A DNA stretch of 64,000 nucleotides from Klebsiella aerogenes KCTC 2190 (lineage in GTDB: Bacteria; Pseudomonadota; Gammaproteobacteria; Enterobacterales; Enterobacteriaceae), in NCBI RefSeq assembly GCF_000215745.1, contig NC_015663.1:4216001-4280000 (forward strand), written 5' to 3'. The notes under the pieces were generated by a model. That model saw only the letters and a list, made by a program, of their open reading frames with translations, did not search any database and was not told the origin of the DNA. Position 1 is the stretch's first letter. Each line of letters begins with the position of its first letter. A program made the translations under genes and the position numbers. Positions 20,094 through 58,700 of the stretch are shown piece by piece.

Positions 20094-21035
20094 TTAGCGG
20101 CGGGTAAACTGCTGCTCAAGCATGGTCTTCCCCCATTGATCGCCCTGCCACTCTTTACTCAGCGTAAACCCAAAGGATTCATATAATTTACGCGCCGCCT
20201 GCAAGCCGCTAAACGTCCATAGCTGAACCGCATCGAAGCGCTGATTATCACAAAAGTTGATAGCTTCAGTCAGCAAGCGGCGCCCCACGCCGCTGCCCCG
20301 ACAGCCATCGCCGAGAATAAACCAACGTAGATGCGCTTCATTATTCCCGAGGTCTTCGCCATCAATGGCGACAGAGCCGACGATGACGCCATTTTTGACC
20401 GCCAGCCAAATCTGGTTACGTTGATTGTTCAGCCTGCCAGAAAATTCAGCCAGACCGCTGGCGACTTTACCTTCAAAAAAATGCCCGAAGCCGTAATGAC
20501 GGGCGTAATACTCACCGTGCATTTGCGCAATGCGGCCAATCATTCCCGGCTGATAGCCGGTAACTATCGTGATGTCGTTTGGTCTGCTCGTGACCGGCTG
20601 CTGACGACAGCGCTCAAGCGCCCACGAATAGGCCGTCAACCCCTCGGCAACGATCTGCTGCTGTGCGCTATCCAAATGCGCCAGCGCCTCAATCACCCGC
20701 ATGGCGCCGTACTCATGAATGCGGGCGACCGTCGCCTGCCCTTTGGTTGTCAATGAGAGTTGTTTAAAACGCCCGTCATCACCACAACCATTTTCCTCTA
20801 TCTCGTTAGCGGTCTGCAGGCGCGATAACATTCGGCTGACGCTCGATTTGTCCAGCCCCAATACCTGCACCAGTTGCGCGGCGGTCATCGCGCCATGAGT
20901 AGAAATCTCCAGCAGCGCATGCACCGCTGAAGGTGAATAGTCGGTCGCCGCCAGCGTGCTGTTCATAAAGCCGAGCTCGCGCACCATCAATCGTGATGCG
21001 GAACGAATTTGATTGATAAGTAAAGTGTCAGGCAT
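20094..21035 (-). CDS. MarR-type regulator fused to a GNAT acetyltransferase
   Basis: A bifunctional 313-aa protein. Residues ~1-140 form a MarR winged helix-turn-helix (MTAAQLVQVLGLDKSSVSRMLSRLQTANEIE), and residues ~150-313 form a GNAT N-acetyltransferase domain with the acetyl-CoA loop pattern GDGCRGSGVGRRLL. The ATG at 21035 gives the family N-terminus (MPDTLLINQIRSASR); an upstream ATG at 21104 adds unrelated residues. Such fusions are widespread but little studied; the acetyl acceptor is unknown. It is convergent with the ABC-F gene, and the 46-base gap between them contains a GCCACCGG/CCGGTGGC inverted repeat that may terminate both. Confidence 0.88.
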   Translation of the reverse strand: MPDTLLINQIRSASRLMVRELGFMNSTLAATDYSPSAVHALLEISTHGAMTAAQLVQVLGLDKSSVSRMLSRLQTANEIEENGCGDDGRFKQLSLTTKGQATVARIHEYGAMRVIEALAHLDSAQQQIVAEGLTAYSWALERCRQQPVTSRPNDITIVTGYQPGMIGRIAQMHGEYYARHYGFGHFFEGKVASGLAEFSGRLNNQRNQIWLAVKNGVIVGSVAIDGEDLGNNEAHLRWFILGDGCRGSGVGRRLLTEAINFCDNQRFDAVQLWTFSGLQAARKLYESFGFTLSKEWQGDQWGKTMLEQQFTRR

Positions 21036-21285
21036 GGTAATATCCGCGAAAGGTAGTTGCATAATACAACCATTATCAACACGCTCTGTCAATGGCCCTG
21101 GCATACTCCGCTCCTTTCGGGTTGCGCCCCCTAAAATTGGTATAAACGGATGAATATTGTGCCAAATATGCGGTAAATCCCCCCATTCCCAACCATACCG
21201 CTTGTAATTAGCGACATAAGATCTAATCCTTAATGAGTATTATTTTCGCTGTTAGCACCTTCGTATCATTAACAAGGAGAAACGC

Positions 21286-22364: not shown

Positions 22365-22454
22365 ATTTCGCAAATGCTTAGCGCAAATCGTTGGTTCCTT
22401 TGTATTCCGTCGCGCCTGATGATGGCAAGACAATAGATAACAAAGGAATTCACC

Positions 22455-24077
22455 ATGCAAAATCGCTTTCGCCTGCCTACGCTTGCCGCCCTTTTTATCG
22501 CAGGCGCATTTTCAGTTTCGGCCGCCCAAACGCCGATCAAAGGCGGCACCTTAATTTATCTGGAACAACAGCCGCACACCAATCTCTATCCGCCAGCCGG
22601 CGGTTTTTACCCTAACGGCGGGATCCTCAATCAGATAACAGACAAGCTAACCTGGCAAAACCCGGAAACGCTAGCTATCGAGCCGTGGATCGCCGAAAGC
22701 TGGAGTAGCAACGACGAGAAGACCGAATATACCTTTAAGCTGCGGCCTGGCGTCACCTTCTCTGACGGTACCCCACTCGATGCCAATGCGGTCGCAAAGA
22801 ACTTTGATACCTACGGTCTGGGCAATAAAGCACTGCGTCTACCGGTTTCCGAAGTGATCAACAATTACGATCGTAGTGAAGTCATCGATCCGTTGACCGT
22901 CAAATTCTACTTCAAAAAGCCCTCCCCGGGATTCCTGCAAGGTACCGCGACAATTGGCTCCGGGCTGGTTTCCCTCAGCACTCTGGCGCGGAGCTTTGAG
23001 GCGCTGGGCGATGCCCGCCATATCATCGGTTCCGGCCCCTTTACGGTAAAAGATGAAAAACCCGGACGCGAATTAACGCTGGTGGCGCGGAAAGATTATC
23101 AATGGGGGCCGAAAAATCTTGCTCAGCAAGGCCCGGCGAACCTCGACGGCATTACCTATATCGTCACGCCGGAAGATAGCGTACGTATTGGCGCGCTACT
23201 GGCGGGACAGGCCGGGTTTATTCGCCAGGTGCAGGCCTATGATGAAAAACAGGCAACCGACCAGGGCTTTAATATTTACGCCGCGCCGACGCGCGGCGTT
23301 AACGATAGCCTGAGCTTCCGTCCGGATAACCCGCTGGTTGCCGACCAGCGGGTACGCCAGGCGCTACTGCATGCTACCAACGCCAAACAGGTTGTTGAGA
23401 CCCTTTTCTCGCCAAACTATCCGCAGGCAAGTTCCGTTATCGCCCGCACCGCGGCGGGATACGTCGATTTAAGCGACAAACTGGCCTTCGATCAGCAGAA
23501 AGCCAAACAGCTGCTGGATGAGGCGGGCTGGACCCCAGGCGCGGATGGTATCCGACAAAAAGCGGGACAGCGGCTGGCGCTCACGGTCTATGAATCCCTG
23601 CCGCAGCCGCAGAACAAAGAGGTGCTACAGCTGGTTGCGCAGCAGTGGCGTCAGGTTGGCGTGGCCTTAAGCGTGAAAGCCGGCGACGCCGGAAGCCGGG
23701 TACTGGATAATCTCGACCCGCTGAAAACGCCATTAACCGTCTCTGAAGTCGGCCGCGCCGACCCGGATGTGGTGAAGAGTATGTTCTTCCCGGCTAATCG
23801 CGATGCCTTGCTGCAACAGGGCGGTTCGAGCGACAAAGTAAAATCCTTCCGTGACGATAAGCTCAACGCCCTGTTAACCGCAATCTCTGCCGAAGTGGAT
23901 GGGCAAAAGCGTCTGCAGCTAACTGGCGATGCACAGCGTTACCTACTGGATAACGCCTACGTTATTCCCATCTTTGAAGAACCGCAGGTCTTTGCCGGCG
24001 CGTCATGGGTAAAAGGCGTACGTTTTGAAGCCGTGGGACGTCCGTCGTTTTACGGCGTATGGCTGGATAAACACTAA
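22455..24077 (+). CDS. ABC transporter substrate-binding protein, family 5 (KPN_01854 type)
   Basis: A 540-aa periplasmic binding protein of the DppA/OppA/NikA family with a Sec signal peptide (cut near SVSA/A at ~residue 24). Family blocks are GGTLIYLEQQPHTNLYP, the LEPWIAESW-type segment (AIEPWIAESWSSNDEKTEYTFKLRPGVTFSDGTP) and the C-terminal YVIPIFEEPQVFA. It begins an operon with two permeases, a dual ATPase, a luciferase-like monooxygenase and a CMD-domain protein. I recognise this as the subfamily named for K. pneumoniae KPN_01854. Ligand unknown; the presence of a flavin monooxygenase argues against ordinary peptides. Confidence 0.88.
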   Translation: MQNRFRLPTLAALFIAGAFSVSAAQTPIKGGTLIYLEQQPHTNLYPPAGGFYPNGGILNQITDKLTWQNPETLAIEPWIAESWSSNDEKTEYTFKLRPGVTFSDGTPLDANAVAKNFDTYGLGNKALRLPVSEVINNYDRSEVIDPLTVKFYFKKPSPGFLQGTATIGSGLVSLSTLARSFEALGDARHIIGSGPFTVKDEKPGRELTLVARKDYQWGPKNLAQQGPANLDGITYIVTPEDSVRIGALLAGQAGFIRQVQAYDEKQATDQGFNIYAAPTRGVNDSLSFRPDNPLVADQRVRQALLHATNAKQVVETLFSPNYPQASSVIARTAAGYVDLSDKLAFDQQKAKQLLDEAGWTPGADGIRQKAGQRLALTVYESLPQPQNKEVLQLVAQQWRQVGVALSVKAGDAGSRVLDNLDPLKTPLTVSEVGRADPDVVKSMFFPANRDALLQQGGSSDKVKSFRDDKLNALLTAISAEVDGQKRLQLTGDAQRYLLDNAYVIPIFEEPQVFAGASWVKGVRFEAVGRPSFYGVWLDKH

Positions 24078-24086
24078 GGGGGCGCC

Positions 24087-25031
24087 ATGAGCCACTATCT
24101 TTGGCGACGGTTGGGACAAGGCGTGCTGGTGCTGTGGGCGGCCTTCACCCTGACCTTTTTTCTGCTGCAGGTACTGCCCGGCGACGCGATTTTGATTAAG
24201 TTTCAGAACCCCGATCTGGGGCTGAGCCCGCAACAGATCGCCGAAATGCGTGTGGTCTACGGTGCTGACAGCCCGCTGTGGCAGCAATATTTCCACACCT
24301 TATTGGCCATGCTGCAGGGGGATTTCGGCTATTCACTGCAGGCTGGACTGCCTGTTAGCTCCCTGATTGCCAGCAATTTACCCGACACGCTGGCGCTGGC
24401 GTTGCCGGCTTTTGCGCTGGCGGTTCTGCTGGCCTTTGCGATCGCTATCGCTTCGCGTTTGCCGGGGCTACGCAGTATCAGCAATCTGCTACAGTCGCTG
24501 CCGGTGCTGTTTATTTCACTGCCGACCTTTTGGCTCGGCATCGCCTTAATCCAGATCTTTTCATTCCAATTGCACTGGGTCCCGGTTATCAATCCCGGAC
24601 CTCTGCAAGGCCTGGTGCTGCCGGTTATCGCGGTGGCGATACCGATTTCCGCGCCGCTGGCGCAAATTCTGTTACGCACCATGGATCACATCGCCGCACA
24701 ACCCTTCGTCGCCGTTGCTCGCGCCAAGGGAATGAGCGAACCACGGGTGTTATGGCGGCATGTCACCGGCAATGCTCTGTTACCGACATTAAACATTGCC
24801 GGCCTGCTGTTGGGAGAACTGATCGCCGGGGCCTTAATTACCGAAACCGTTTTTGGCCGCAGCGGGCTCGGCCAACTGACGCAGCAGGCGGTGAATAATC
24901 AGGATATTGCCATTCTTCAGGCCGTGGTGATGATTTCAGCGCTGGGCTTCGTCGTCATCAATCTGCTGGTCGATCTGCTGATGCCGATGCTCGACCCGCG
25001 CTTAAAACCCCTGCGCGGAGGTGCGCTATGA
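24087..25031 (+). CDS. ABC transporter permease, DppB type
   Basis: First inner-membrane permease of the operon, 314 aa with six predicted membrane helices. The start (MSHYLWRRLGQGVLVLWAAFTLTFFLLQVLPGDA) is the typical DppB/NikB N-terminus, and the EAA loop lies around RAKGMSEPRVLWRHVTGNALLP. It follows the binding-protein gene by 9 bases and overlaps the next permease start by four bases (ATGA). It would form the channel with the second permease. Confidence 0.93.
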   Translation: MSHYLWRRLGQGVLVLWAAFTLTFFLLQVLPGDAILIKFQNPDLGLSPQQIAEMRVVYGADSPLWQQYFHTLLAMLQGDFGYSLQAGLPVSSLIASNLPDTLALALPAFALAVLLAFAIAIASRLPGLRSISNLLQSLPVLFISLPTFWLGIALIQIFSFQLHWVPVINPGPLQGLVLPVIAVAIPISAPLAQILLRTMDHIAAQPFVAVARAKGMSEPRVLWRHVTGNALLPTLNIAGLLLGELIAGALITETVFGRSGLGQLTQQAVNNQDIAILQAVVMISALGFVVINLLVDLLMPMLDPRLKPLRGGAL

Positions 25032-25879
25032 GTCTGGTCGATTACGCCTCGGCGGTGCGACGCCGTCCGGTCAACTGGCGCCGTTTTTCCTTGCAGCCGG
25101 GGCTGTGGCTGGCATGGTTGGTAATGACGGTTGCGGTGCTAATGGCTTTCGCGCCGCAATGGTTCACCGAGTTTAATCCACTCGACGGCATCGCTGGCGC
25201 CCAACGTCTGGCGCCGCAGGCGGGACACTGGTTAGGTACCGACCAACTCGGTCGCGATGTGTGGAGCCGCATCGTCTACGGCGCAGGGCATTCGCTTTCC
25301 GCGGCCCTGGCCGCCGTCGCCATGGGCCTGGTTGTCGGCACGGCGTTGGGCACCGTTGCCGGGGCGCTGGGCGGGCGGGTCGAAGCGGTCGTCATGCGGA
25401 TTGTCGATATTCTGCTGGCGATTCCTTCGCTCCTGCTTTCGCTAACGGTAATCATACTGCTTGGTTTTGGCACTCTGAACGCCGCCATGGCGGTCGGCGT
25501 TGCCGCGATCGCCAGTTTCGCCCGACTGTCGCGCGCCGAAGTCGTGCGCATTCGTCACAGCGACTATGTCGAAGCAGCCTATGGTAGCGGGGGAACCTTT
25601 TTGGCCGTGTTCTGGCGGCATATTCTGCCTAACGCGCTTTCGCCGGTGCTGGCTTTCGCCACCCTTCAATTTGGCCAGGCTATTCTCGCCCTCTCAACCC
25701 TGAGTTTTCTCGGCTACGGCACTCCGCCGCCGGTGCCGGAATGGGGATTACTTATCGCCGAGGGGCGCAACTATCTTTCCACCGCCTGGTGGCTCACCAC
25801 TTTCCCCGGTATCGCGGTCATTGCCGTGGTACTGGCAGCCAATCGTATCAGCCAACAACTCAATAGGGAGCGCCGATGA
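25028..25879 (+). CDS. ABC transporter permease, DppC type
   Basis: Second permease, 283 aa, with a long cytoplasmic N-terminus and about six helices as in DppC/NikC. A typical HWLGTDQLGRDVWSRIVYG block follows the first helix; the EAA motif region is near SDYVEAAYGSGGTFLAVFWRHILPNALSP. Its ends overlap both neighbours by four bases, so translation is coupled in the whole ABC unit. Confidence 0.93.
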   Translation: MSLVDYASAVRRRPVNWRRFSLQPGLWLAWLVMTVAVLMAFAPQWFTEFNPLDGIAGAQRLAPQAGHWLGTDQLGRDVWSRIVYGAGHSLSAALAAVAMGLVVGTALGTVAGALGGRVEAVVMRIVDILLAIPSLLLSLTVIILLGFGTLNAAMAVGVAAIASFARLSRAEVVRIRHSDYVEAAYGSGGTFLAVFWRHILPNALSPVLAFATLQFGQAILALSTLSFLGYGTPPPVPEWGLLIAEGRNYLSTAWWLTTFPGIAVIAVVLAANRISQQLNRERR

Positions 25880-27477
25880 ACGTGCTTAGCGTAGAAAACC
25901 TCACCATCAGCTACCGCTCTGGCGGGTTGTGGCGCGAAGTGGTTCACCGGGTCAGTTTTACGATTAAACGCGGCGAGATGCTGGCGTTCGTCGGCGAATC
26001 CGGTTCGGGAAAAACCACCACCGCCCAGGCGATTATCGGTCTGCTGGCGGAAAACGCCCGCCTCGATGCCGGGACGGTTCGTCTCAACGGTGAAGAGATT
26101 AGCCGCTGGTCAGGCAAACGGCTGGATAACCTGCGCGGGGCCAGAATCAGCCTGGTGCCGCAGGATCCCGGCAACTCGCTGAACCCGGTGCAAACCATCG
26201 GCGCGCAGGTCGGCGAAATACTCCGACTGCATCAAAAAAGCAGTAAAACCGAGCGTCGACAGCAGGTTATCGCCCTGCTGGAAAAAGTCGGCTTAAGCTA
26301 TCCAGAGCAGCGTTTCGAGCAGTATCCGCACCAGCTCTCCGGCGGTATGAAGCAGCGGGTGCTGATCGCCATTGCCATCGCCCTGAAGCCGGATTTGATT
26401 ATTGCCGATGAGCCGACCAGCGCGCTCGACGTGACGGTCCAAAAAAGAATCCTCGATCTGCTCGATCATTTGCGCCGTGAATCCGGCACCGCGGTGCTAT
26501 TTGTCACCCATGACCTCGCGCTGGCGGCGCAGCGTGCCGACCGGCTGGTGGTTTTTCGTCACGGTGAAATTCAGGAACAGGGCAATACGGGTGATGTTAT
26601 TCGCACCCCGCAGCACGGCTATACCCGCCAATTGCTGTGCGATCTGCAGGGACAGAACCTGCACTTAACCACCACGATTCACCCGTTTGTTACGCCGGCA
26701 ATTCGGGTTGAAGGCGTGAGCAAACGCTTTGCGTTAGGGGGCAGCCATCTCCAGGCGCTGGATAACGTAAGCTTTATTTTACCGCGTGGCAGTACCCATG
26801 CGCTGGTCGGCGAATCGGGTTCAGGAAAAACCACCCTCGCCCGTATCTTGCTGGGTTTTGAGCAGGCCGATAGCGGACAGGTGACCATCGACGGTATTGC
26901 CAGCGGACAATTGAGCCGCGAGGCCCAGCGCCAACTGCGGCGCAAAATTCAGTTTGTTTATCAAAACCCTTTCGCCTCACTCGACCCTCGCCAAACCCTG
27001 TTCGACATTATCGAAGAGCCGCTGAAGAATTTACAGCGCCTGTCCAAAGAAGCTCGGCGTCAACGGGTAGAGTCCGTCGCCGCCCGTGTCGCGCTGGCGC
27101 CGGAGCTACTCTACCGAACCGCTCGTGAGCTCTCCGGCGGCCAGCGACAGCGGATCGCTATCGCCAGGGCATTGATCCTCGACCCCACGATTCTGGTGCT
27201 CGATGAGGCCACCTCAGCGCTGGATGTCACGGTGCAGGCGCAAATTCTCGCCCTGTTGCTGCAATTACAGCAACAGCTTGGGTTGAGCTATCTGTTTATC
27301 ACCCACGATCTGGCGACAGTACGCCGCATCGCCCATAGCGTGACGGTGCTGCGCACCGGGCAAGTCATCGAACAGGGCGAGGTTAAGCAGTTGTTCGCCG
27401 CGCCGCAGCACGACTATACCCGCGAGCTGCTCGCCGCCATTCCTCATTATCACGCACCGTGCACGGAGGTTGCATGA
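25876..27477 (+). CDS. Dual-domain ABC transporter ATPase (DppD-DppF fusion)
   Basis: A single 533-aa protein with two nucleotide-binding domains, replacing separate DppD and DppF subunits. Both halves carry Walker A GESGSGKTT; signatures are LSGGMKQRV and LSGGQRQRI; Walker B regions are IIADEPTSALDVTVQ and VLDEATSALDVTVQ. It powers the transporter encoded immediately upstream. The GsiA/YejF-type fused layout is common in this family. The stop codon overlaps the start of the monooxygenase gene by ATGA. Confidence 0.93.
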   Translation: MNVLSVENLTISYRSGGLWREVVHRVSFTIKRGEMLAFVGESGSGKTTTAQAIIGLLAENARLDAGTVRLNGEEISRWSGKRLDNLRGARISLVPQDPGNSLNPVQTIGAQVGEILRLHQKSSKTERRQQVIALLEKVGLSYPEQRFEQYPHQLSGGMKQRVLIAIAIALKPDLIIADEPTSALDVTVQKRILDLLDHLRRESGTAVLFVTHDLALAAQRADRLVVFRHGEIQEQGNTGDVIRTPQHGYTRQLLCDLQGQNLHLTTTIHPFVTPAIRVEGVSKRFALGGSHLQALDNVSFILPRGSTHALVGESGSGKTTLARILLGFEQADSGQVTIDGIASGQLSREAQRQLRRKIQFVYQNPFASLDPRQTLFDIIEEPLKNLQRLSKEARRQRVESVAARVALAPELLYRTARELSGGQRQRIAIARALILDPTILVLDEATSALDVTVQAQILALLLQLQQQLGLSYLFITHDLATVRRIAHSVTVLRTGQVIEQGEVKQLFAAPQHDYTRELLAAIPHYHAPCTEVA

Positions 27478-28463
27478 CGCCTAAACGCCTGGGGTTTTTT
27501 ACCCGCTTACTCGACCACGCCACGCCGCAAGAGCGCTATCGACTGGCGACGGAGCAGATCCGCCATGCGGAACGGCTGGGCTTTGATAGCGCCTGGGTGG
27601 CGCAACACCATTTTCATGAAAATGAAGGCGGTTTACCGTCGCCGCTGGTGTTTCTTGCCTACGCGGCGGCACATACGCAACGGATCCGACTCGGCACCGC
27701 CATCATTACGCTGCCGATGGAGAACCCGCTACGTGTCGCAGAAGATGCGGCAGTACTGGATTTACTCGCAGAGGGTCGCCTGGAAGTGGGTTTTGGTTCC
27801 GGCGGAACGCCAACCTCTTTTCTCCCTTTTGGCCTGGCCTGCGAACAGCGCGGCACGGTCTTCGCCGATCATCTGCATTTGATTGAAAGCGCCTGGCGCG
27901 GCGATACGTTGGCTCATCCTGACAATCACCTTTATCCGCCCGCGCCGCAGCTGGCAAAACGGATTTGGATCGCCACCTTTTCGATTGAAGGCGCTATTCG
28001 GACCGCTAAATCCGGCCACGGGTTGATGCTATCGCGCACACAGCCGCGTCCGCCAGGTCAAAGCGAGCTGCCGCTGGATGCGATTCAGAACCCGATTATC
28101 GACGCCTACCTCGCCGCGCTACCAGCCGGCGTGGCGCCGAGAATTCTGGCTTCCCGCACCGCGTTTATTGCCGACAGTCAGGGGTACGCGCTACAGGCCG
28201 CAGAGCCGGGATTAAGTAAACAGGCGGCAGCCCATCGCGCCGCCGGCCATGAGATTAGTGGTGACACCGTCACGGATTACGCTCGCCAGTTGGATGCCCA
28301 CATTGGTGATGCGCCACATGTGCTTGCATCGCTGGCTAAAGACAGCGTGCTAGCCCGGGTGACTGACATTTCGTTTCAGGTCCATTCGGTGGAGCCATCG
28401 CATCAGGACACGCTGCGTTCTATCGAACTCATCGCTAAACACATTGCCCCGCAATTCAGATAA
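27474..28463 (+). CDS. FMN-dependent luciferase-like monooxygenase (KPN_01858 type)
   Basis: A 329-aa bacterial-luciferase-like flavin monooxygenase. Family blocks are AERLGFDSAWVAQHHFHENEG and RIRLGTAIITLPMENPLRVAEDAAVLDLLAEGRLEVGFGSG. Related enzymes oxidise alkanesulfonates, aldehydes or other small molecules with reduced FMN supplied by a reductase. No flavin reductase is in this operon. The ATG at 27474 overlaps the ATPase stop and has a GGAGG ribosome site; the frame extended to 27459 is inside the ATPase gene. I recognise the group named for K. pneumoniae KPN_01858. Coupling to a transporter suggests it acts on the imported compound. Substrate unknown. Confidence 0.87.
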   Translation: MTPKRLGFFTRLLDHATPQERYRLATEQIRHAERLGFDSAWVAQHHFHENEGGLPSPLVFLAYAAAHTQRIRLGTAIITLPMENPLRVAEDAAVLDLLAEGRLEVGFGSGGTPTSFLPFGLACEQRGTVFADHLHLIESAWRGDTLAHPDNHLYPPAPQLAKRIWIATFSIEGAIRTAKSGHGLMLSRTQPRPPGQSELPLDAIQNPIIDAYLAALPAGVAPRILASRTAFIADSQGYALQAAEPGLSKQAAAHRAAGHEISGDTVTDYARQLDAHIGDAPHVLASLAKDSVLARVTDISFQVHSVEPSHQDTLRSIELIAKHIAPQFR

Positions 28464-28472
28464 GGAGTCGCT

Positions 28473-29564
28473 ATGAGCTTAAGTCAGGATATTTTGGCTG
28501 AACTGGCGGAGATCGCCGCCGATTCAGCGCTGGGCAAGGCCCGCGCTTTGCGCGAGGCTGCGACCCGCCACGCCCAGGGAAGTTACGAGGTGCTATTTAG
28601 CCAACAGGATGAGGATTTTCCGCTCGAAGAACGGTTCGCCGTCGCCGCAAAAGTGGCCAGACTTCATCAGGCAGACGCGCTGGCGGCGCATTACGCCGGT
28701 TTCGGTATTGCCGACCCGACAACCCCACGGCTTGCCGCGGCGCTGGGGTTTGCCCGCCTGTTGACCTTCACCCCGGTGGAAGCGACGCCCGCGGCGCTGC
28801 AAACGCTGAGCGACGCGGGCTGGAGCCTGCGAGGTATTGTGACGCTGGCGCAGCTTGTTGCGTTTGTCAGTTTTCAAAGCCGATTGCTGAGCGGATTACG
28901 ATTGTTAAATGGCAAACCAATTTCCGCAGCTGGGACCCCGGTGGTTGCCGGCTACTGGCACACTCATCCCCGGACGGCTAGCGGTAAACCTGCGCCGGTG
29001 GCGTTTACTCGTGATGAATTACACTGGGAACCGTGGATTGCCGATAAGCCTCTCGCTGAATTTAACGCCGCCGAGCAGGCGCTGCTGGCGCAGTTCGGCC
29101 ACAGTGATTCCCCCTACTTTCGCTTACTGGCGCGCAATCAGCCGGTGCTTGAACAGCGCACGCTGACCGATAAAGGGATTTTCTATACGCCGGGCGGCCT
29201 GCCGCGCGCCGAGCGTGAACTGGCGGCCACGGTGGCGAGTAAAATCAACGGCTGCATCTACTGCGCGTCGGTACACGCGCGCAAGGCGGCGCAGTTGTCC
29301 AAAGATGAGCGAGCGGTGGAGAACCTGTTGGCGGTAACGCCTGGGGAGAATCTCAGCGATGGCCAAGGGCCGCGCTGGCAGGCGGAGATTGACGCCGCCG
29401 CCGCGCTTTCCGTCACCCCGCCCGCGATAACCCCAGCGCATCTCAGCGCGCTGGAGCAGCAGGGTCTGGATATCGTCGAACAGCTGGACCTGCTGCAATC
29501 GACGGCATTCTTCGCCTGGGCTAACCGCCTGATGCTAACCCTTGGCGAACCGTGGCGGGATTAA
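28473..29564 (+). CDS. Two-domain CMD/AhpD-like alkylhydroperoxidase protein
   Basis: A 363-aa protein made of two AhpD-like (carboxymuconolactone decarboxylase fold) halves. The C-terminal half has the redox motif CIYCASVHARKA with C261, C264 and H268; the N-terminal half (about 1-165) lacks the CxxC. In rhizobial genomes these halves are separate neighbouring genes (Avi_7170 and Avi_7169 types), so this is a fusion. It starts 9 bases after the monooxygenase. A role in handling peroxide or a reactive product of the flavin reaction is plausible but unproven. Confidence 0.82.
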   Translation: MSLSQDILAELAEIAADSALGKARALREAATRHAQGSYEVLFSQQDEDFPLEERFAVAAKVARLHQADALAAHYAGFGIADPTTPRLAAALGFARLLTFTPVEATPAALQTLSDAGWSLRGIVTLAQLVAFVSFQSRLLSGLRLLNGKPISAAGTPVVAGYWHTHPRTASGKPAPVAFTRDELHWEPWIADKPLAEFNAAEQALLAQFGHSDSPYFRLLARNQPVLEQRTLTDKGIFYTPGGLPRAERELAATVASKINGCIYCASVHARKAAQLSKDERAVENLLAVTPGENLSDGQGPRWQAEIDAAAALSVTPPAITPAHLSALEQQGLDIVEQLDLLQSTAFFAWANRLMLTLGEPWRD

Positions 29565-30746
29565 TCAGGCCTGCTCTGCCTGGGTAACGCGATGACGCGT
29601 TACCCGCCGCTGGTATCGCGCATACAGCAGCAACGAGCTCATCGCCAGGAACGACAGCGCTGCCGCCGGCAGCGCGACCGAACGCCAACCCGCGCCAAAG
29701 GTAATCATCATCCCGCCGCAGTAGGCGCCAATCGCGCTGCCGAGGTTAAACGCTATCTGACCGCCCGCCGCCCCGAGCATTTCGCCGCCTCTGGCATTTT
29801 GTAACAGTAATATTTGCAGCGGCGCGGCGAGCGCGAAAAGCCCGGCGCAGCAGATAAACGCCAGCACCAGCGAAGCCAGCGGCTGTATGCCAAAGGCAAA
29901 GATGAGCAGTAACACCGCAACAATGACGCCGTTGGTCATCGCCGCAATACGCAGCGGACTGTAACGCCCAGAGATCCTGCCGCTAAAGAGATTACCTAAA
30001 ACCATCCCCAATCCGACCAGCATCATAATGAACATCATCGCCGACTCGCTAAAGCCGGAGACATTTATCATGAAGGGCTTGATATAGCTAAACCAGGCAA
30101 AAACGCCGGCATTGCCGAACATCGTGGCGGCGAAAATAAACCATGGCGCCGGGGATTTAAGGAAATGGAATTGTTCACTGAGCCGGGTGGTTGATTTGTC
30201 ATACAGCGTTGGCACCCAGCGCAGTATCGCCAAAAGCACCAGCACATCAAATAGCGCGATGGCCGTGAAGGTATAACGCCAGTTGAACTGATGGCCAAGC
30301 CAGGTGCCCGCCGGTACGCCAAGCAGGTTTGCCACCGTCATACCCGCTATCATCCCGGCGACCGCCGCGGTAACCCTGCCCGGCGAGGCGATTTTCGACA
30401 AGATAATCGCTCCGACGCCAAAATAAGCGCCGTGAGGAAAACCGGAAATAAAGCGCCCGAGCGCCAGCATGGGATAACTTGAGGAGAAGGTAAACAACGC
30501 GTTGCCTGCAACACACAGCGCCACCAGAAACAGCATCACTGATTTCAGCGAAAAACGGCTGGAAAACAACGCCATGACAGGCGCGCCAAACACCACGCCA
30601 AAGGCGTACCACGAGATCATGTTGCCGGCCGCGGGGATGGTAATGCCGACATCATGGGCGATTTCAGGCAATACCCCCATGATGCCGAACTCCGCCATTC
30701 CGAGGCCAAAGGTCCCCAGCGCTAAGGAAAAAATCGTTTTCTTCAT
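29565..30746 (-). CDS. araJ: MFS efflux protein AraJ
   Basis: A 393-aa, twelve-helix transporter of the drug:H+ antiporter-1 family, closely matching E. coli AraJ (MKK.I.SLALGTFGLGMAEFGIMGVL start and ISGFPHGAYFGVGAIILSKI). In E. coli the gene is arabinose-induced but its function is not established. Here it is not beside araBAD; it ends at the same base where the CMD gene ends (convergent, stops abut at 29564/29565). Efflux of a product of the neighbouring catabolic operon is possible but unsupported. Confidence 0.9.
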   Translation of the reverse strand: MKKTIFSLALGTFGLGMAEFGIMGVLPEIAHDVGITIPAAGNMISWYAFGVVFGAPVMALFSSRFSLKSVMLFLVALCVAGNALFTFSSSYPMLALGRFISGFPHGAYFGVGAIILSKIASPGRVTAAVAGMIAGMTVANLLGVPAGTWLGHQFNWRYTFTAIALFDVLVLLAILRWVPTLYDKSTTRLSEQFHFLKSPAPWFIFAATMFGNAGVFAWFSYIKPFMINVSGFSESAMMFIMMLVGLGMVLGNLFSGRISGRYSPLRIAAMTNGVIVAVLLLIFAFGIQPLASLVLAFICCAGLFALAAPLQILLLQNARGGEMLGAAGGQIAFNLGSAIGAYCGGMMITFGAGWRSVALPAAALSFLAMSSLLLYARYQRRVTRHRVTQAEQA

Positions 30747-30830: not shown

Positions 30831-31547
30831 TTAACCCATCCCCAGATAAGCATTTCTGACTTCCGGGTTATCCAGCAACTCTGCGCCGCTACCGCTCAGA
30901 CGTATTTCGCCGTTGACCAGCACATACGCGCGGTTAGCCAGTTTCAGCGCGTGGTGCGCATTTTGCTCCACCAGCAGCAGCGTCATGCCCAGGTCGGTCA
31001 ACTCGCGCAAAACGCTGAAGATCTGCTTCACCACCAGCGGCGCCAGACCCAGGCTCGGTTCGTCTAATAGCAATAGCTTTGGCCGGCTCATCAGCGCGCG
31101 GGCGATTGCCAGCATTTGCTGCTCGCCGCCGGAGAGCGTCATCGCCCGCTGCGCGCGACGCTCTTCCAGCCGTGGAAACAGCTGATACATCCGCGCTTTA
31201 TCTTCATTCTGATAACGATTACCTATGGGAATAGTGCCCATCAGCAGGTTTTCTTCCACCGTCATATCGGCAAAAATACGCCGTCCTTCCGGCGCCTGAG
31301 CAATACCGTTGGTGGCGATATAGTGCGTCGACTGGCGGCTGATATCATGTCCGCGATAGATAATACTGCCATCGGTAATCCGCGGCTGGCCGAAAATCGA
31401 CATCAGCAGCGTGGATTTTCCGGCGCCGTTAGCGCCGATTAACGCCACCGTTTCGCCTTCATTGACCATTAGCGATACCGACTTCAGCGCCTGGATTTGC
31501 CCGTAATAGACGTTCACCTCGCGAAATTCCAGCAACGGTTGGCTCAT
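30831..31547 (-). CDS. livF: Branched-chain amino-acid-type ABC transporter ATPase LivF
   Basis: A 238-aa ATPase of the LivF family. Walker A is GANGAGKST, the signature is LSGGEQQML, and Walker B is LLLLDEPSLGLAP. It is the last gene of livK-H-M-G-F-like order on the minus strand, its start overlapping the livG stop. It works with the LivG-like ATPase to energise uptake of a hydrophobic amino acid or related compound. Confidence 0.92.
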   Translation of the reverse strand: MSQPLLEFREVNVYYGQIQALKSVSLMVNEGETVALIGANGAGKSTLLMSIFGQPRITDGSIIYRGHDISRQSTHYIATNGIAQAPEGRRIFADMTVEENLLMGTIPIGNRYQNEDKARMYQLFPRLEERRAQRAMTLSGGEQQMLAIARALMSRPKLLLLDEPSLGLAPLVVKQIFSVLRELTDLGMTLLLVEQNAHHALKLANRAYVLVNGEIRLSGSGAELLDNPEVRNAYLGMG

Positions 31548-32419
31548 CAGGCGATCTCCTGTTCATCGGTACCCAGGTATGCGGCGATCACGCTCAGGTT
31601 GGCCTGGATCTCGGCCGGGGTGCCATGAGCAATAACATCGCCGTGGTCGAGCACGATCACGCGATCGGAGATTTCCATCACCATGCTCATATCGTGTTCT
31701 ATCAACAGTACGCTGACGCCATGATGTTCACGCAGAAAACGAATAATCCGGCTCAGGGCACGCGTTTCCGCCGGGTTGAGCCCGGCCGCGGGTTCGTCAA
31801 GACACAGTATTTCCGGCCCGGTACACATCGCGCGGGCGATCTCCAGCCGCCGCTGCTGGCCATAAGAGAGCGTTCCCGCCAGTCGATTGGCGCAGTCAAC
31901 CATCTCCACCACTTCCAGCCAGTAAAAGGCCCGCTCTACTGCGCGGTTCTCCGCCTGGCGATAGCCGCGGGTATTCAGGATCCCGGCGATCAGATGGCGG
32001 TTAACCTGCATATGCTGGGCCACCATCAGATTTTCAATTACCGTCATTTCTCGAAACAGGCGGATATTCTGGAAGGTACGCGCCAGCCCGGCGCGGTTGA
32101 CCAGATGCGCGCCGCCGAACATTTTGTAGTACATCCGCCGTCCCAGACGCGCGGGATGGAAAAAATCATCGGCATGCAGTTTCTGCCCGAGAACCTGAAT
32201 CACATCGGTCATTCGTTGCCGGGCATTAAGCCGAATGGCGCCGCCGCTGGCGCGGTAAAACCCGGTCAGGCAATTGAACACCGTGGTCTTCCCCGCGCCG
32301 TTCGGGCCAATCAGGGCGGTAATCGATCCGCGTTCAACCTCAAGGTTGACATCATTCAGCGCTTTAATCCCGCCAAAATGCATCATCAGATGCTCGACCT
32401 GCAATATTGCATCGCTCAT
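31547..32419 (-). CDS. livG: Branched-chain amino-acid-type ABC transporter ATPase LivG
   Basis: A 290-aa ATPase with Walker [10 protein letters not shown], signature [10 protein letters not shown] and Walker [14 protein letters not shown]. It is about 35 residues longer than E. coli LivG (255); the extra segment lies after [10 protein letters not shown] and before [10 protein letters not shown] (about residues 57-105) and is rich in charged and aromatic residues. This longer form fits a non-E. coli-type liv locus, so this is probably a second, distinct transporter. Its start overlaps the livM stop by four bases. Confidence 0.9.
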
Positions 32420-33702
32420 GGCGCGACTCCTTTGCGGATTTCCACCCCGGTACGCCCGGTGCGCACCAGCCCGCGCGGGCGCCAGATCATCATCAGAACC
32501 ATCAACACGCCAAAGAGTAGAACCCGGTATTCGTCAAAGCCGCGCAGCAGCTCCGGCGTAACCGTCAGCACGAAAGCCGCCAGCACCACCCCCAATGTCG
32601 AGCCCATGCCGCCTAATACCACGATAGCGAGGATCAGCGCCGATTCGAAAAAAGTGAACGACGTCGGGTTGACGAACCCCTGATAAGTGGCGAAAAAGAC
32701 GCCGGCGATGCCGGCCGTCGACGCGCCAAGCATAAACGCGGACAGCTTAACCAGCACGTGATTCAGCCCCATCGCCCGGCAGGCGATTTCATCTTCCCGC
32801 AGCGCCTCCCAGGCCCGGCCAATCGGCATCCGGGTCAGGCGGTGTTTTATCAGCAACACCATTAACACCACGATAAACAACACGGCATAAATAAAGATAA
32901 ATTTAAGGTTGGGGTTGTAGGCAATATGCAGAAATTCATGAATCGGGGTGCCGCCCTCTTTGGCTCGCCGGGCAAACTCGAGGCCGAAGAGCGTTGGCGA
33001 TGGCACCGAAACGCCGTTGGGGCCGCCGGTAAAGCTCACCCAGTTGTTGAGCACCAGGCGGATGATTTCGCCGAATCCCAGCGTCACAATAGCCAGGTAG
33101 TCGCCATGCATTCGTAATACCGGAAAACCCAATAATGCTCCTGCCAGCGCCGCCATCACCGCCCCCAGCGGCAGCATTGCCCAGAAACCTAAGCCAAGGT
33201 ATTGATAGCCAAGCGCCAGGCCATAGGCGCCAATGGCGTAGAAGGCGACGTACCCCAAATCAAGTAACCCCGCGAGACCCACCACGATGTTTAATCCCAG
33301 CCCCAGCAGGACGTAGATAAGCCCGAGGATCGCCACGGTAAGCAGATACTTACTGGCCATTAACGGGAAAACGATAGCCGCAATCACCAGCAGCGGCAGG
33401 ACAAAACGCAGCCGACTACGATAGCCGGGGGGACGGACAAATACCCCCTGATCGTTGCCTTCAAAACGTCCGATAAACCGCTTCCCCCCGCGGGTTTGCA
33501 AAAGCAGGCTGAGCAACAGCCGCCCCGCCATCACCACCGCCACCAGCACGAAGACGCGCTGCGGGGAAAGCGTAAAACTGTACCCCTTCAGCACGATCCC
33601 CACGATCGGGCCAAAGACTATCAGCGCGCATAAACCGGCCAATACGCTATCGATAACGCTGCGCTTGACGTCGATGCCGTCTAAACGGGAAATATCGGTC
33701 AT
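32416..33702 (-). CDS. livM: Branched-chain amino-acid-type ABC permease LivM
   Basis: A 428-aa inner-membrane permease with about ten helices. The family motif [26 protein letters not shown] is clear, as is the later [16 protein letters not shown] and the [16 protein letters not shown] segment. It pairs with LivH to form the channel. A GGGGGA ribosome site precedes the ATG. It follows livH by 9 bases. Confidence 0.93.
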
Positions 33703-33711
33703 ATATCCCCC

Positions 33712-34626
33712 TTAGACCTTGGCGACAACAGGACGGCCTAACAGCCCCTGTGGACGAAAAATCAGGATAGCCACCAGCAATGCGAACGAGAAGACATCCT
33801 TATAATCCGAGTTCACTAACCCGGCGAACTGCGCCTCGGCAACGCCCAACAGCAGGCCGCCAAGCATCGCCCCCGGCAGCGATCCGATCCCACCCAGTAC
33901 CGCTGCGGTGAAAGCCTTAATGCCGATAATAAAGCCAATATAAAAATCAAACGTGCCGTAATTCATGGTCACCAGTACCCCGGCAAGGCCCGCCATGGCG
34001 GCGCCAATCATAAATACCAGCGAGATCACCCGATCGGTGTTAATGCCGAGAATGGCCGCCATCCGCCGATCCTGCTGGGTCGCGCGGCATACGCGCCCGA
34101 GCTGCGTGTGGTTGATTATCCAGCTCAGCACCACCATGCCGACGAAGGCGGCGAGCAGGATGAAGATTTTGGTCCAGGTGATTTGCACCACGCCATCTCC
34201 TACCGTAAGCCGCAGTACGCCGTGCATCAACGTCGGGATCCCCTGTTGATTGGGGCCCTGACTCAGTTGCACGTAGTTTTGTAAAATCAGCGACATGCCA
34301 ATAGCCGAAATCAGCGGCGCCAGACGCGTTGAGTTACGTAGCGGCCGATAAGCAATGCGTTCGATGGCCCAGCCGTACACCCCGGTGACGATAATCGTAA
34401 ACACCAGCGTGCCGAAAATAAGCAGCGGGAAAGAGTGAATACCGAAGTAGGCCAGCAGCGCCAGCCCGATAGCGCACAGGTAGGCTGAGACCATATATAC
34501 CTCGCCGTGGGCGAAGTTAATCATACCGATGATGCCATAAACCATGGTGTAGCCAATGGCGATAAGCCCATATACCGCGCCAAGCGTTAAGCCATTGATC
34601 AGTTGTTGCAGAAAGAATGCCGCCAT
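33712..34626 (-). CDS. livH: Branched-chain amino-acid-type ABC permease LivH
   Basis: A permease of about 304 aa with eight helices and the family start FFLQQLINGLTLGAVYGLIAIGYTMVYGIIGMINFAHG. The C-terminal block AAVLGGIGSLPGAMLGG is also typical. The ATG at 34626 is chosen because the family N-terminus begins there and an AGGA lies upstream; a longer frame begins at 34647. It is separated from the binding-protein gene by two hairpins. Confidence 0.92.
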   Translation of the reverse strand: MAAFFLQQLINGLTLGAVYGLIAIGYTMVYGIIGMINFAHGEVYMVSAYLCAIGLALLAYFGIHSFPLLIFGTLVFTIIVTGVYGWAIERIAYRPLRNSTRLAPLISAIGMSLILQNYVQLSQGPNQQGIPTLMHGVLRLTVGDGVVQITWTKIFILLAAFVGMVVLSWIINHTQLGRVCRATQQDRRMAAILGINTDRVISLVFMIGAAMAGLAGVLVTMNYGTFDFYIGFIIGIKAFTAAVLGGIGSLPGAMLGGLLLGVAEAQFAGLVNSDYKDVFSFALLVAILIFRPQGLLGRPVVAKV

Positions 34627-34650
34627 AGGAACCATCCTGCCAGTCAAGGT

Positions 34651-34682
34651 GCAGCAGACGCAGAGGCCTTAACGTCTGCTGC
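34651..34682 (-). promoter_or_regulatory. Intercistronic hairpin before livH
   Basis: GCAGCAGACG and CGTCTGCTGC form a perfect 10-bp stem with a 12-base loop. It lies between the binding-protein gene and the permease genes, and there is no T-run. Such a hairpin can protect the 3' end of the upstream message and lower readthrough. Confidence 0.65.
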
Positions 34683-34695
34683 TTACGGTGGTACG

Positions 34696-34716
34696 ACGCC
34701 CCTCTGATGAGGGCGT
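34696..34716 (-). promoter_or_regulatory. Second intercistronic hairpin downstream of the binding-protein gene
   Basis: ACGCCC plus TC pairs with GA plus GGGCGT around a TGAT loop, with one bulged C. It starts 22 bases beyond the binding-protein stop and together with the hairpin at 34651-34682 makes a tandem structure. Confidence 0.6.
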
Positions 34717-34737
34717 TATGCGCACTACAATCCCGGG

Positions 34738-35853
34738 TTACAGCTGATGATATTTGCCTTTATCATCCCATTGATAAACCACGTAATCCGATACTTTCAG
34801 GTCGCCTTTGCCATCCCAGGCCTTTTTCCCCATCACGGTATCGACGCTGTGGTTTTTCAGCCATTCGCTGGCTTTGGCATTATCGGTACCGGCGGCGTTA
34901 TAGGCGGCGGCGATAGCCTGAATGGACGCATAGGCGTAAAGGGTATAGCCCTCCGGTTCAAAACCGCTGGCGCGGAATTTGTCGATCACCGCTTTACCTT
35001 CAGGAATGGTGCGCGGATCCTTACCGAAGGTCATTAACACACCATTAGTAAACTGCGGCCCGCCCGCGGCCGTAACCAACTCTTCGGTCACCACGCAGTC
35101 GCCGGAGAAGAACTTAGCCTGGACGCCCTGCTCGCGCATCTGGCGCACCAGCGGGCCGGCTTCCGGATGGCAGCCGCCAAAATAAACCACATCCGGTTTC
35201 AGGGCGCCGATTTTGGTTACCAGGGCATTGAAATCTTTTTCCCCGCGGGATAAGCCTTCATACAACACCTCTTTCGTCCCGCGTTTCGCGAGCGCCGCGC
35301 GCGTCGCATCGGCTAAGCCCTGACCGTAGGTATCTTTATCGTGAATGACGGCGATCTTCTTCGCCTTCAGCACATCCAGCATGTAGTTGGCAGCAATCAC
35401 CCCTTGCTGGTCATCGCGCCCGCACATGCGGAACATATCTTTCATTCCGCGTTCGGTGATCTGCGGATTGGTGGAGCCCGGCGTGATGGTCAGGATCCCG
35501 GCTTCGTCATAGACCTCGGAAGCGGGCATCGTTGAGGAAGAGCAGAAATGGCCCACCACCGCCGAGACGCCGGAATCATCAACCAGGCGGTTAGCCACCG
35601 CCACTGCCTGCTTGGGTTCACAGGCATCATCACCCTGCACCAGCACAATTTTTTCGCCTTTAATTCCCCCGGCGGCATTAATATCCGCCGCCGCCTGCGA
35701 TGCCCCTTTCCAGTATTGGGCGCCATAGGTCGCATTCGGCCCGGTAAATGGGCCGGCCACGCCAATCTTCACATCCGCCTGTGCATAAAATGCCGCGCTC
35801 AAACAACCTGCTATTGCAAAATGCAGAGTCAACTTTTTAAGTTTTAAAGACAT
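34738..35853 (-). CDS. livK: Branched-chain amino-acid-type ABC substrate-binding protein
   Basis: A 371-aa periplasmic binding protein of the LivK/LivJ family with a Sec signal peptide (cut near AQA/D at ~residue 25). Mature start DVKIGVAGPFTGPNATYG and the central GHFCSSSTMPASEVYDEAGI are family hallmarks, and a cysteine pair is placed as in LivJ. The ATG at 35853 follows GAGGA; the extended frame to 35910 is not homologous. The symbol reflects family, not proven specificity: leucine, isoleucine, valine or other ligands are possible. It is the first gene of the five-gene locus. Confidence 0.9.
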   Translation of the reverse strand: MSLKLKKLTLHFAIAGCLSAAFYAQADVKIGVAGPFTGPNATYGAQYWKGASQAAADINAAGGIKGEKIVLVQGDDACEPKQAVAVANRLVDDSGVSAVVGHFCSSSTMPASEVYDEAGILTITPGSTNPQITERGMKDMFRMCGRDDQQGVIAANYMLDVLKAKKIAVIHDKDTYGQGLADATRAALAKRGTKEVLYEGLSRGEKDFNALVTKIGALKPDVVYFGGCHPEAGPLVRQMREQGVQAKFFSGDCVVTEELVTAAGGPQFTNGVLMTFGKDPRTIPEGKAVIDKFRASGFEPEGYTLYAYASIQAIAAAYNAAGTDNAKASEWLKNHSVDTVMGKKAWDGKGDLKVSDYVVYQWDDKGKYHQL

Positions 35854-36414
35854 TCGGATAGTCCTCAGCGATATCGAACAGACGCCATAAACTGGCGCAG
35901 TAAAAACCACTTACAGCGTAACGTGCCAATGCTGGAATAAGCCGTAGCGGCTTCGGTAGATAAAGCAAAAAACCCGCCAGGAAGAGAGGTATCGCCAGAT
36001 CGATTACTAATAGTCGCGTAGCGTGACCGCAATCGGTACCACCCCGGCGATGCGCCAGTCTTTACAGGTCAGGAGGTCTGTTGCCGTCACGTGGCCTGCC
36101 GGGAACGCTGGTGTCCATACCGACAGTGAGCTAAACATAGAACGTCTTTAGCAACCTTGCGCACCGGGCTGGTGCAAAAGTGCGGAGATGATCAAAACTA
36201 GTGAAAATTTTGCTGCATTAATGTGAAATTAATAACGAGGGCATGGGGAATGCTCGGCAATACAGGCAACTACCATAAAGAATTACCGAGGAGTAGCAAC
36301 TTTATGCTGCCAGATGGCGTTTGCGCTTTGAAACATTAACTTCTTTTACGTATTATCTTAAGCCTTGTTTTTTTACCTGCTGCCGTGGCGGGTTTTGCCT
36401 CATGGATGAAAATC
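35854..36414. promoter_or_regulatory. Intergenic region with presumed liv-type promoter
   Basis: A 561-bp gap between the leftward binding-protein gene and a rightward small gene. It must hold promoters for both. I see no clear operator. A 43-codon minus-strand frame at 36007-36138 is listed separately. The stretch 36200-36380 is AT-rich and otherwise unremarkable. Confidence 0.4.
36007..36138 (-). CDS. Candidate 43-aa small ORF upstream of the liv-type locus
   Basis: ATG at 36138, stop at 36007-36009, on the same strand as the liv-type genes and about 150 bases upstream of the binding-protein start. The residues include several valines, leucines and isoleucines (GVVPIAVTLRDY end) but not the runs of regulatory codons seen in ilv leader peptides. 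There is no good ribosome site and no clear attenuator hairpin. It may be chance. Confidence 0.2.
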   Translation of the reverse strand: MFSSLSVWTPAFPAGHVTATDLLTCKDWRIAGVVPIAVTLRDY

Positions 36415-55782: not shown

Positions 55783-58700
55783 ATGAGTAAATTACTGGAT
55801 CGCTTTCGCTACTTTAAGCAGAAACGCGAGACCTTTGCCAACGGCCACGGTCAGGTCTACGATAATAACCGTGACTGGGAAGATAGCTACCGGCAACGCT
55901 GGCAATTCGACAAAATTGTCCGCTCCACGCACGGTGTGAACTGTACCGGCTCCTGTAGCTGGAAAATTTATGTCAAAAACGGTCTGGTCACCTGGGAAAC
56001 CCAGCAGACCGATTATCCGCGCACCCGACCGGACCTGCCAAATCACGAACCGCGTGGCTGTCCGCGCGGCGCCAGCTACTCATGGTATCTCTACAGCGCC
56101 AACCGCCTGAAGTACCCGCTGGCGCGCAAACGGCTGATTGAGCTGTGGCGCGAAGCCCTTGCACAACATCCCGACCCGGTACAGGCCTGGGATAGCATCA
56201 TGCAGGACCCGCTGAAAACCCGCAGCTACAAACAAATCCGCGGTAAAGGCGGTTTTGTTCGCTCCAGTTGGAAAGAGTTAAATCAACTGATCGCCGCAGC
56301 CAACGTCTGGACCATCAAAAACTACGGTCCGGATCGCGTCGCGGGCTTTTCGCCGATCCCGGCGATGTCGATGGTTTCCTACGCCGCGGGTACCCGCTAT
56401 TTATCGTTGATCGGCGGCACCTGCCTGAGCTTTTATGACTGGTACTGCGATTTACCCCCCGCCTCACCGATGACCTGGGGCGAACAGACCGACGTGCCGG
56501 AATCCGCCGACTGGTATAACTCCAGCTACATTATTGCCTGGGGTTCAAACGTCCCGCAGACCCGAACCCCGGACGCGCACTTCTTCACCGAAGTGCGCTA
56601 CAAGGGCACCAAAACCATCGCCATTACTCCGGATTATTCGGAAGTCGCCAAGCTCTGCGACCAGTGGCTGGCGCCGAAGCAAGGTACCGACAGCGCGCTG
56701 GCGATGGCGATGGGCCACGTGATCCTCAAAACCTTCCACCTCGATAACCCAAGCGATTACTTTCTCAACTACTGCCGTACCTATACCGATATGCCGATGC
56801 TGGTAATGCTCGACCGTCGTGACGACTGCAGCTATGCGCCTGGCCGTATGCTGCGCGCCGCCGACCTGCTTGACGGGCTGGGAGAAAGTAATAACCCGGA
56901 ATGGAAAACCGTCGCCTATAACGCCGAAGGCGAGCTGGTCGCGCCGAACGGATCCATCGGCTTTCGTTGGGGCGAAAAAGGCAAATGGAATCTCGAACAA
57001 CAGGCTAACGGCCGGGACGTCGAATTAAAATTGTCGCTGCTGGATATGCACGATAGCGTGGTGTCGGTCGGTTTCCCCTACTTCGGCGGCAACGAAAACC
57101 CGCATTTCCGCAGCGTGAAGCAGGAGCCGGTAACGCTTCATCAGTTGCCAGCTAAACAGCTACCGTTGGCCAATGGTGAGAGCGCTTTGGTGGTGAGCGT
57201 GTATGACCTGGTGCTGGCTAACTACGGTCTGGATCGCGGTCTTGACGATGCCAATGCCGCGCGCGACTTCGCGGATGTCAAAGCCTATACTCCGGCATGG
57301 GCCGAGCAGATCACCGGCGTGCCGCGTCAACATATCGAACAAATCGCCCGCGAGTTCGCCGATACGGCGCATAAAACCCATGGCCGTTCGATGATTATCC
57401 TCGGCGCCGGTGTGAACCACTGGTACCACATGGATATGAACTACCGCGGGATGATCAACATGCTGGTGTTCTGCGGCTGCGTCGGTCAGAGCGGCGGTGG
57501 CTGGTCGCACTATGTCGGCCAGGAGAAACTGCGCCCGCAGACCGGCTGGCTGCCGCTGGCGTTCGCGCTGGACTGGACTCGTCCGCCGCGGCAGATGAAC
57601 AGTACCTCTTATTTCTACAACCACGCCAGCCAATGGCGCTACGAAAAACTGACCGCTCAGGAGCTGCTGTCGCCGCTGGCCGACGCCAGCAAATTCAGCG
57701 GCCATATGATTGACTTCAACGTTCGCGCCGAGCGCATGGGCTGGCTGCCTTCCGCGCCGCAGCTTAACGTTAATCCGCTGAGCATCAGGCAGCAGGCCGA
57801 GGCCGCCGGGCTGTCACCGGCCGATTTCACCGTCCAGTCGTTAAAAGCAGGCGATATTCGCTTTGCCGCCGAGCAGCCGGATAGCGGCAACAACCACCCG
57901 CGCAACCTGTTTATCTGGCGTTCGAACCTGCTGGGTTCGTCCGGTAAGGGCCATGAGTACATGCTCAAGTACCTGCTCGGTACCGATAACGGTATTCAGG
58001 GCGAGGAGTTTGGCTCCACCGCTGACGTGAAGCCGGAGGAAGTCGAGTGGCAGACCGCGGCGATTGAGGGCAAACTTGATCTACTGGTGACCCTCGATTT
58101 TCGCATGTCCAGTACCTGCCTGTTCTCCGATATCGTCCTGCCGACCGCCACCTGGTATGAAAAAGACGATATGAACACCTCAGACATGCACCCGTTTATC
58201 CACCCCCTTTCCGCCGCCGTCGACCCGGCCTGGGAGGCGAAAAGCGACTGGGAAATCTACAAGGACATCGCCAAAAGTTTCTCTGAAGTGTGCGTCGGCC
58301 ACCTTGATAAAGAGACCGATGTGGTACTGGTACCGCTGCTGCATGACTCTCCGGCGGAGCTGTCACAGCCGTTCGATGTCCTCGACTGGCGCAAGGGCGA
58401 ATGCGATCTCATTCCAGGCAAAACCGCGCCGTCAATTGCGCTGGTTGAACGTGACTACCCTGCCACCTGGGAACGCTTCACCTCGCTGGGGCCGTTACTC
58501 GATAAGCTCGGCAACGGCGGTAAAGGCATTTCGTGGAATACGCAAAGCGAGGTCGACTTCCTCGGCAAACTTAACTACGTCAAGCCAGACGGTCCGGCCA
58601 AAGGCCGTCCGCGTATCGACAGCGCTATCGACGCCAGTGAAGTCATCTTAAGCCTGGCGCCGGAAACCAACGGCCAGGTGGCGGTGAAAGCCTGGCAAGC

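Follow-up and report, generated by a model that had tools for sequence, protein, structure and literature searches.

Within a 64,000-nt stretch of the Klebsiella aerogenes KCTC 2190 genome (NC_015663.1, positions 4,216,001 to 4,280,000; this whole stretch is the window, and its numbering is used below), we describe a six-gene operon on the + strand (22455–29564) that probably specifies an organosulfur scavenging system induced by sulfate starvation through CysB or Cbl. Its products would import a small organosulfur compound and then cleave a C–S bond with the reduced form of flavin mononucleotide (FMN), FMNH2, and O2. The proposal is built on four things that can be read from the DNA: gene content, conserved linkage, a promoter element and sulfur neighbours. 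An earlier sequence-only reading of the window had drawn no link to sulfur; the link came from the promoter element, a Cbl-like neighbour and flanking sulfur genes. In our judgement its most likely role is to scavenge sulfur through chemistry of a known kind whose arrangement here is new. If this is correct, several protein families that NCBI carries as hypothetical would together form a testable system for sulfur nutrition in enterobacteria and rhizobia, both chromosomal and plasmid-borne.

All six genes are intact and face the same way (Table 1), and the tight packing on one strand described by the sequence-only reading agrees with their coordinates, their junctions (+9, −4, −4, −4 and +9 nt in gene order) and the gene order kept in relatives. 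The overlaps are indeed of the ATGA type, whereas both gaps measure 9 nt rather than the 9–10 nt first given. The family names it had given, KPN_01854/KPN_01858 and Avi_7169/7170, were correct (NCBIfam matches), as was the placing of the transporter in an ATP-binding cassette (ABC) family other than that of Ssu and Tau (SBP_bac_5/BPD_transp_1, of the Nik-Opp class), and import followed by flavin-dependent oxidation still seems the natural interpretation of these genes. The curated cut-offs of the NCBI hypothetical equivalogs TIGR04027, TIGR04028, TIGR04029 and TIGR04030 are all exceeded, and the dual ATPase exceeds those of general Opp/Nik ATPase models (for example PRK11308, 471.3/408). For the luciferase-like monooxygenase (LLM) we took the ATG at 27474 as the start, within a longer open reading frame (ORF) that opens with GTG at 27459. 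An AlphaFold2 model of the solute-binding protein (SBP) had a mean pLDDT of 51.6 and was not used.

Table 1. The operon and its candidate promoter element (window coordinates; paired values are score/cut-off in bits).
Feature	Coordinates	Strand	Size and matches
Candidate CysB-type element AAATCGTTGGTTCC	22385..22398	+	14 nt; starts 70 nt before SBP start codon
SBP, family-5 periplasmic solute-binding protein	22455..24077	+	540 aa; TIGR04028 868.6/468.5; PF00496 (SBP_bac_5) 239.2 bits
ABC importer permease 1, Nik/Opp class	24087..25031	+	314 aa; PF00528 (BPD_transp_1) 96.0 bits; best NCBIfam Opp2B 243.4, under cut-off 350
ABC importer permease 2	25028..25879	+	283 aa; PF00528 96.5 bits; best NCBIfam Opp2C 234.1, under cut-off 300
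Fused dual ABC ATPase	25876..27477	+	533 aa; PF00005 (ABC_tran) 225.4 bits, two stretches
FMN-dependent LLM	27474..28463	+	329 aa; Bac_luciferase; TIGR04027 534.1/412.9
CMD (TIGR04029) + AhpD-like (TIGR04030) fusion	28473..29564	+	363 aa; TIGR04030 311.5/233.15; TIGR04029 178.4/100.75; Pfam CMD

Upstream of the operon, a block common to its relatives looks, by eye, like the cys promoters of E. coli. The pattern AAWTCSTTRSTTCC, written to cover several Klebsiella operon variants, has only two matches in the 5.28-Mb genome of the strain, one 70 nt before the operon and the other 78 nt before cysK. Across 13 genomes of the genus it gave 25 matches, which took in cysK in 13/13 and the operon in 7 of the 12 carriers, compared with one match for the backward control; in genomes G002, G009 and G011 an identical 14-mer precedes both the operon and cysK. 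Similarly, the E. coli cysD promoter scored 32 in local alignments against the 90 nt upstream of the operon, a value reached by 0 of 400 shuffles, while the best of 25 control promoters scored 19. A position matrix made from eight operon sites placed E. coli cysK in the top 0.5% of background and cysD in the top 1.7%, and its best match in 75.5 kb was the cysJ–queD gap. The element is put forward here as a candidate CysB site.

The genes around the operon point the same way. All five Tatumella loci have a Cbl-like divergent neighbour, identified once by model (496.6/491 bits) and four times by 84–93% identity to that protein. A fixed sulfur-gene panel, which counts as a match the amidohydrolase that belongs to some of the operons, was also searched for in the flanks. 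It gave matches at 22 of 80 named loci (L009–L088, the best 80 of 280 LLM relatives, biased to close kin) and at 8 of the 14 other loci with the operon, compared with 0/20 random windows of 20 kb, drawn from six genomes, and 0/13 second-tier AhpD loci. By annotation, GNAT, CmoJ-like, amidohydrolase and MsnO8-type genes are divergent from the operon in Pantoea sp. At-9b, aliphatic-sulfonate and taurine transporter genes lie beside it in Rhizobium tumorigenes, and MetQ is nearby in Agrobacterium vitis. An amidohydrolase directly follows CMD in nine of the 80 loci (Pantoea-type) and on the Pantoea vagans and At-9b plasmids, and its best solved relative is B. subtilis YxeP (359.4 bits). Paralogues of the LLM stand beside SfnB in Burkholderia stagnalis (40% identity) and beside SsuE, O-acetylhomoserine sulfhydrylase and homoserine acetyltransferase (MetX) in Streptomyces (36.5%), and a more distant relative (genome G376) adjoins SsuD-like proteins that score under the SsuD cut-off. 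Furthermore, KPN_01858 and TauC are both reported among the higher proteins in an iron-limited K. pneumoniae proteome (PMC7194016), a joint rise that proves nothing and agrees, weakly, with shared control by sulfur state.

Linkage within the operon is well conserved among close relatives. All six genes keep the same order in 79 of the 80 named loci, the exception (L031) being a 4-kb contig that begins inside PermC. In a draw of 20 genomes from the genus, the strain's own included, the fusion gene scored above 630 bits in 18, against 0/20 more distant genomes; in one of the 18 (G018:C1:2677588–2678673) a single TAA lies inside the match. Among 398 genomes of the phylum, TIGR04027 was over cut-off in 16, TIGR04030 in 15 (all within the 16) and TIGR04028 in eight (all within the 15), G350 alone of the 16 having the LLM without a TIGR04030 partner. 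Because of these counts we place the core of the system in the LLM and its CMD/AhpD partner. The same conclusion follows from family f57, in which six of the 16 genomes have the enzyme trio (LLM, CMD and AhpD) beside Liv-type transporter genes in place of the family-5 importer, and in which a MetQ-like gene lies near the LLM in five of six loci; the one Liv-type binding protein checked there was under the Liv model cut-off. Comparative genomics had been proposed in the sequence-only reading to see whether the six genes stay together: they do in close relatives, but not in the f57 genomes. Farther afield, the operon is annotated in A. vitis and R. tumorigenes, where CMD and AhpD are two separate genes, and tblastn located it in Sinorhizobium americanum and Nonomuraea gerenzanensis.

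Several other loci vary around the same core. In L119–L126 and L152–L155 the trio is accompanied by importer genes of the Opp type or by Liv-type genes, or has no importer annotated alongside, and in Terrarubrum and Paracoccus no such importer is annotated directly beside it in plasmid gene tables that are incomplete. A Glyoxalase_3/VOC gene was found in 30 of 99 loci (L036, L039, L061 and others). In many loci of the Pantoea, Erwinia and Rahnella types it stands 3' of the operon; at L085 its place is upstream rather than after CMD, and the association itself is real. In Rahnella, upstream pyrimidine-permease-like genes were rejected as members, as were other flank genes of Serratia and Enterobacter, all named by eye.

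The operon can be compared with S-alkylcysteine salvage (CmoO/CmoJ, B. subtilis ytm/ytn) and 2SC breakdown (yxe/scm), whose published pathways (PMC10863075, PMC9706529, PMC12757645) likewise have an importer and an LLM. The likeness extends to the YxeP-like amidohydrolase, in Pantoea-type operons only, and to the Cmo-like genes that flank several operons. However, this importer is of family 5 and not SBP_bac_3, the operon has no acetyltransferase and it carries the additional CMD/AhpD protein. The LLM shows only local similarity to a CmoO-like protein (33% over 113 aa), and TIGR03860, the CmoJ/YxeK-type monooxygenase, is absent among its 25 listed matches, the CmoJ-like gene of the genome being elsewhere. 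Just outside the window, at C1:4283420–4290928 (L200:4421–11929) on the − strand and 38–45 kb downstream of the operon, the strain has a Cmo-like S-alkylcysteine salvage cluster, with a CmoO-like LLM (63%), amidohydrolase (66%), CmoJ-like LLM (82%) and GNAT protein (68%; all four identities are to the Pantoea genes), as well as two SBP_bac_3-like proteins and ABC genes. With SsuEADCB and SfnG the operon would share sulfur scavenging by an FMNH2-dependent LLM, judging here from the genes, and genes of this kind are neighbours in Serratia bockelmannii (SsuA/SsuD matches, L081) and in R. tumorigenes. Nevertheless, neither SsuD nor SfnG is among the 25 NCBIfam matches listed for the LLM, the transporter family differs from that of SsuEADCB, and the operon has no FMN reductase; the genome does encode an SsuE orthologue (80%).

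Several observations weigh against a sulfur role. Upstream DNA of E. coli cysK was already known to us when AAWTCSTTRSTTCC was written, five of its 25 matches stand at no identified sulfur gene of the panel, and the strain's own operon and cysK sites agree at 11/14 bases with little agreement outside (14/30). Local alignment of the operon upstream region gave no similarity to the cysK, cysP, cysJ, tauA or ssuE promoters, the position matrix was unremarkable at cysP, tauA, ssuE, tcyJ and tcyP, and three other places in E. coli score about as high by it as cysK does. The members of the gene panel were partly drawn from loci that were tested (L152, L153), its matches cluster by clade, and there were none in the flanks of the Klebsiella, Enterobacter-type (L009–L033, L053) or Rahnella loci. 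In 14 control genomes TIGR04030 and TIGR04028 were each over cut-off once, and TIGR04027 in none. Finally, the strain already has its separate Cmo-like cluster, so the operon must serve something else.

With regard to the enzymes themselves, the LLM has a solved homologue of nearly whole length, PCX02514 of Klebsiella sp. PCX (PDB 8k74; 613 bits over residues 3–329). Arg11, Arg126, Ser187 and Arg188 are invariant in 48/48 family members, and His254 is kept in 15; alanine mutants of the equivalent residues in 8K74 are described as less active, with figures for some only (PMC11354265). The invariant residues would fit an anionic ligand, either the flavin phosphate or the substrate. The AhpD-like assignment of the partner protein is supported by ahpD_dom (45.4/27.8 bits) and by a CxxC...H active-site motif (CIYCASVH at residues 261–268), whose cysteines and histidine are invariant in all 37 full-length proteins aligned. 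Its AlphaFold2 model (mean pLDDT 88.4) has two helical domains and a low-confidence linker near residues 166–181. E. coli YciW is a two-domain relative, and a review citing Kawano 2015 places a CysB motif upstream of it (PMC10821248); however, at 22% identity, without CxxC and not beside such an LLM or importer, it differs from the fusion, and the lack of CxxC rules it out as an equivalent. Among 13 lower-scoring CMD/AhpD loci (L137–L149), two neighbours weakly resemble flavin-containing monooxygenases (37.7 and 41.9 of 425 bits), which hints at a module of monooxygenase and CMD/AhpD protein that may recur beyond this operon. CMD/AhpD pairs at L137, L143, L146 and others of these loci lie beside ABC importers and proteins with the look of FAD monooxygenases, and are possible sister modules.

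From this evidence we infer CysB activation, import, C–S cleavage, a reaction at CxxC and a class of substrate. CysB, and in some species Cbl too, would turn the operon on; the family-5 SBP and ABC importer would take up a small organosulfur compound; the LLM would break its C–S bond using O2 and FMNH2 supplied by SsuE or another flavin reductase; and the CxxC protein would reduce a sulfur-oxidised or peroxidic product, with the sulfur passing to the cysteine pool. The last two steps are proposed by analogy with YxeP, said to deacetylate N-acetylcysteine in 2SC breakdown (PMC9706529, PMC12757645), and with the Cmo pathway, where the sulfenic acid formed by C–S cleavage is reported to undergo reduction afterwards (PMC10863075). 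Since a relative of this deacetylase accompanies Pantoea-type operons, our tentative guess, by analogy, is that the substrate belongs to the S-substituted cysteine derivatives, in N-acylated or peptide-linked form. A narrower and rather doubtful version is a route dedicated to N-acyl-S-substituted cysteines (mercapturates, plant S-conjugates), in which the LLM would dealkylate the import directly and the AhpD-family CxxC protein would reduce the sulfenic acid. We know of no such job for the AhpD family; if it were true that the protein handles sulfenates, AhpD-like proteins would gain a metabolic role next to flavin monooxygenases. Among the open-licence papers listed for mercapturates, none is on this operon by its title; more generally, among the open-licence papers listed, we recognised none on it by title and abstract apart from PMC11354265, and one paper lists KPN_01858 once.

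Other functions can be proposed for the same genes. The operon might instead gain nitrogen or carbon by taking up an amine or aminopolycarboxylate and splitting it oxidatively, as the monooxygenase systems for ethylenediaminetetraacetate (EDTA) and nitrilotriacetate (NTA) do. Such a role would be in keeping with the fact that LLMs also cleave C–N bonds, with the Opp-type importer of the EDTA system and with the AhpD pair found beside other importers and flavoenzymes. We nevertheless think it improbable, as it is countered by the promoter element, Cbl and the flanking sulfur genes, and NtaA/EmoA form a different LLM subfamily (TIGR03860, absent among the 25 listed matches). Quite improbable, too, is an importer for peptides or nickel chelates whose two enzymes serve redox defence: among importer families this one comes nearest to nickel and oligopeptide systems, and sulfur starvation itself is reported to raise antioxidant genes in P. 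aeruginosa (PMC12581299), but the LLM and CMD/AhpD persist beside Liv-type genes in f57. Furthermore, the SBP reaches only 154.3 of 393 bits with the NikA model TIGR02294 and 99 of 594 bits with GsiB, and we rejected both a NikABCDE nickel importer and a glutathione importer.

Long polymers are not usual ABC substrates, and an operon for breakdown of poly(acrylic acid) (PAA), with the LLM as PAA monooxygenase, would explain neither the sulfur context nor the CysB-type element; we hold this to be highly improbable. Such an activity has been published for PCX02514, with an NADPH-dependent PAA product seen by high-performance liquid chromatography–mass spectrometry, a molecular weight down by ~34% and mutants of lower activity (PMC11354265). 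However, the reported kcat is 0.00214 per second, and NADPH is needed rather than FMNH2, an odd requirement in an LLM; the gene context of PCX02514 is undiscussed in that text, where operon, transporter, gene cluster, sulfur and knockout each occur 0 times. We consider the PAA activity incidental, and caution is advised before this enzyme is named a polymer degrader from one in-vitro report. The sequence-only statement that there is no established substrate still holds for the operon, but for the close LLM homologue the PAA claim stands in print.

In the rest of the window, an AraJ-type MFS transporter gene (29565–30746, − strand; 667.2 of 499 bits) is convergent with the operon and follows it directly. 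Beyond it lies a Liv-type branched-chain amino acid ABC cluster (30831–35910, − strand), named by eye from its ORFs; apart from weak matches, the panel that tested gene order did not find this cluster beside the operon in other loci. On the other side, a MarR-type regulator fused to a GNAT acetyltransferase (20094–21104, − strand, 336 aa) adjoins adhP, and was rejected as a member because it accompanies the operon in only nine of the 80 loci. Farther off, consecutive ORFs of 1246, 514, 231 and 226 aa (55783–62436, + strand) resemble a respiratory nitrate reductase operon by their sizes alone.

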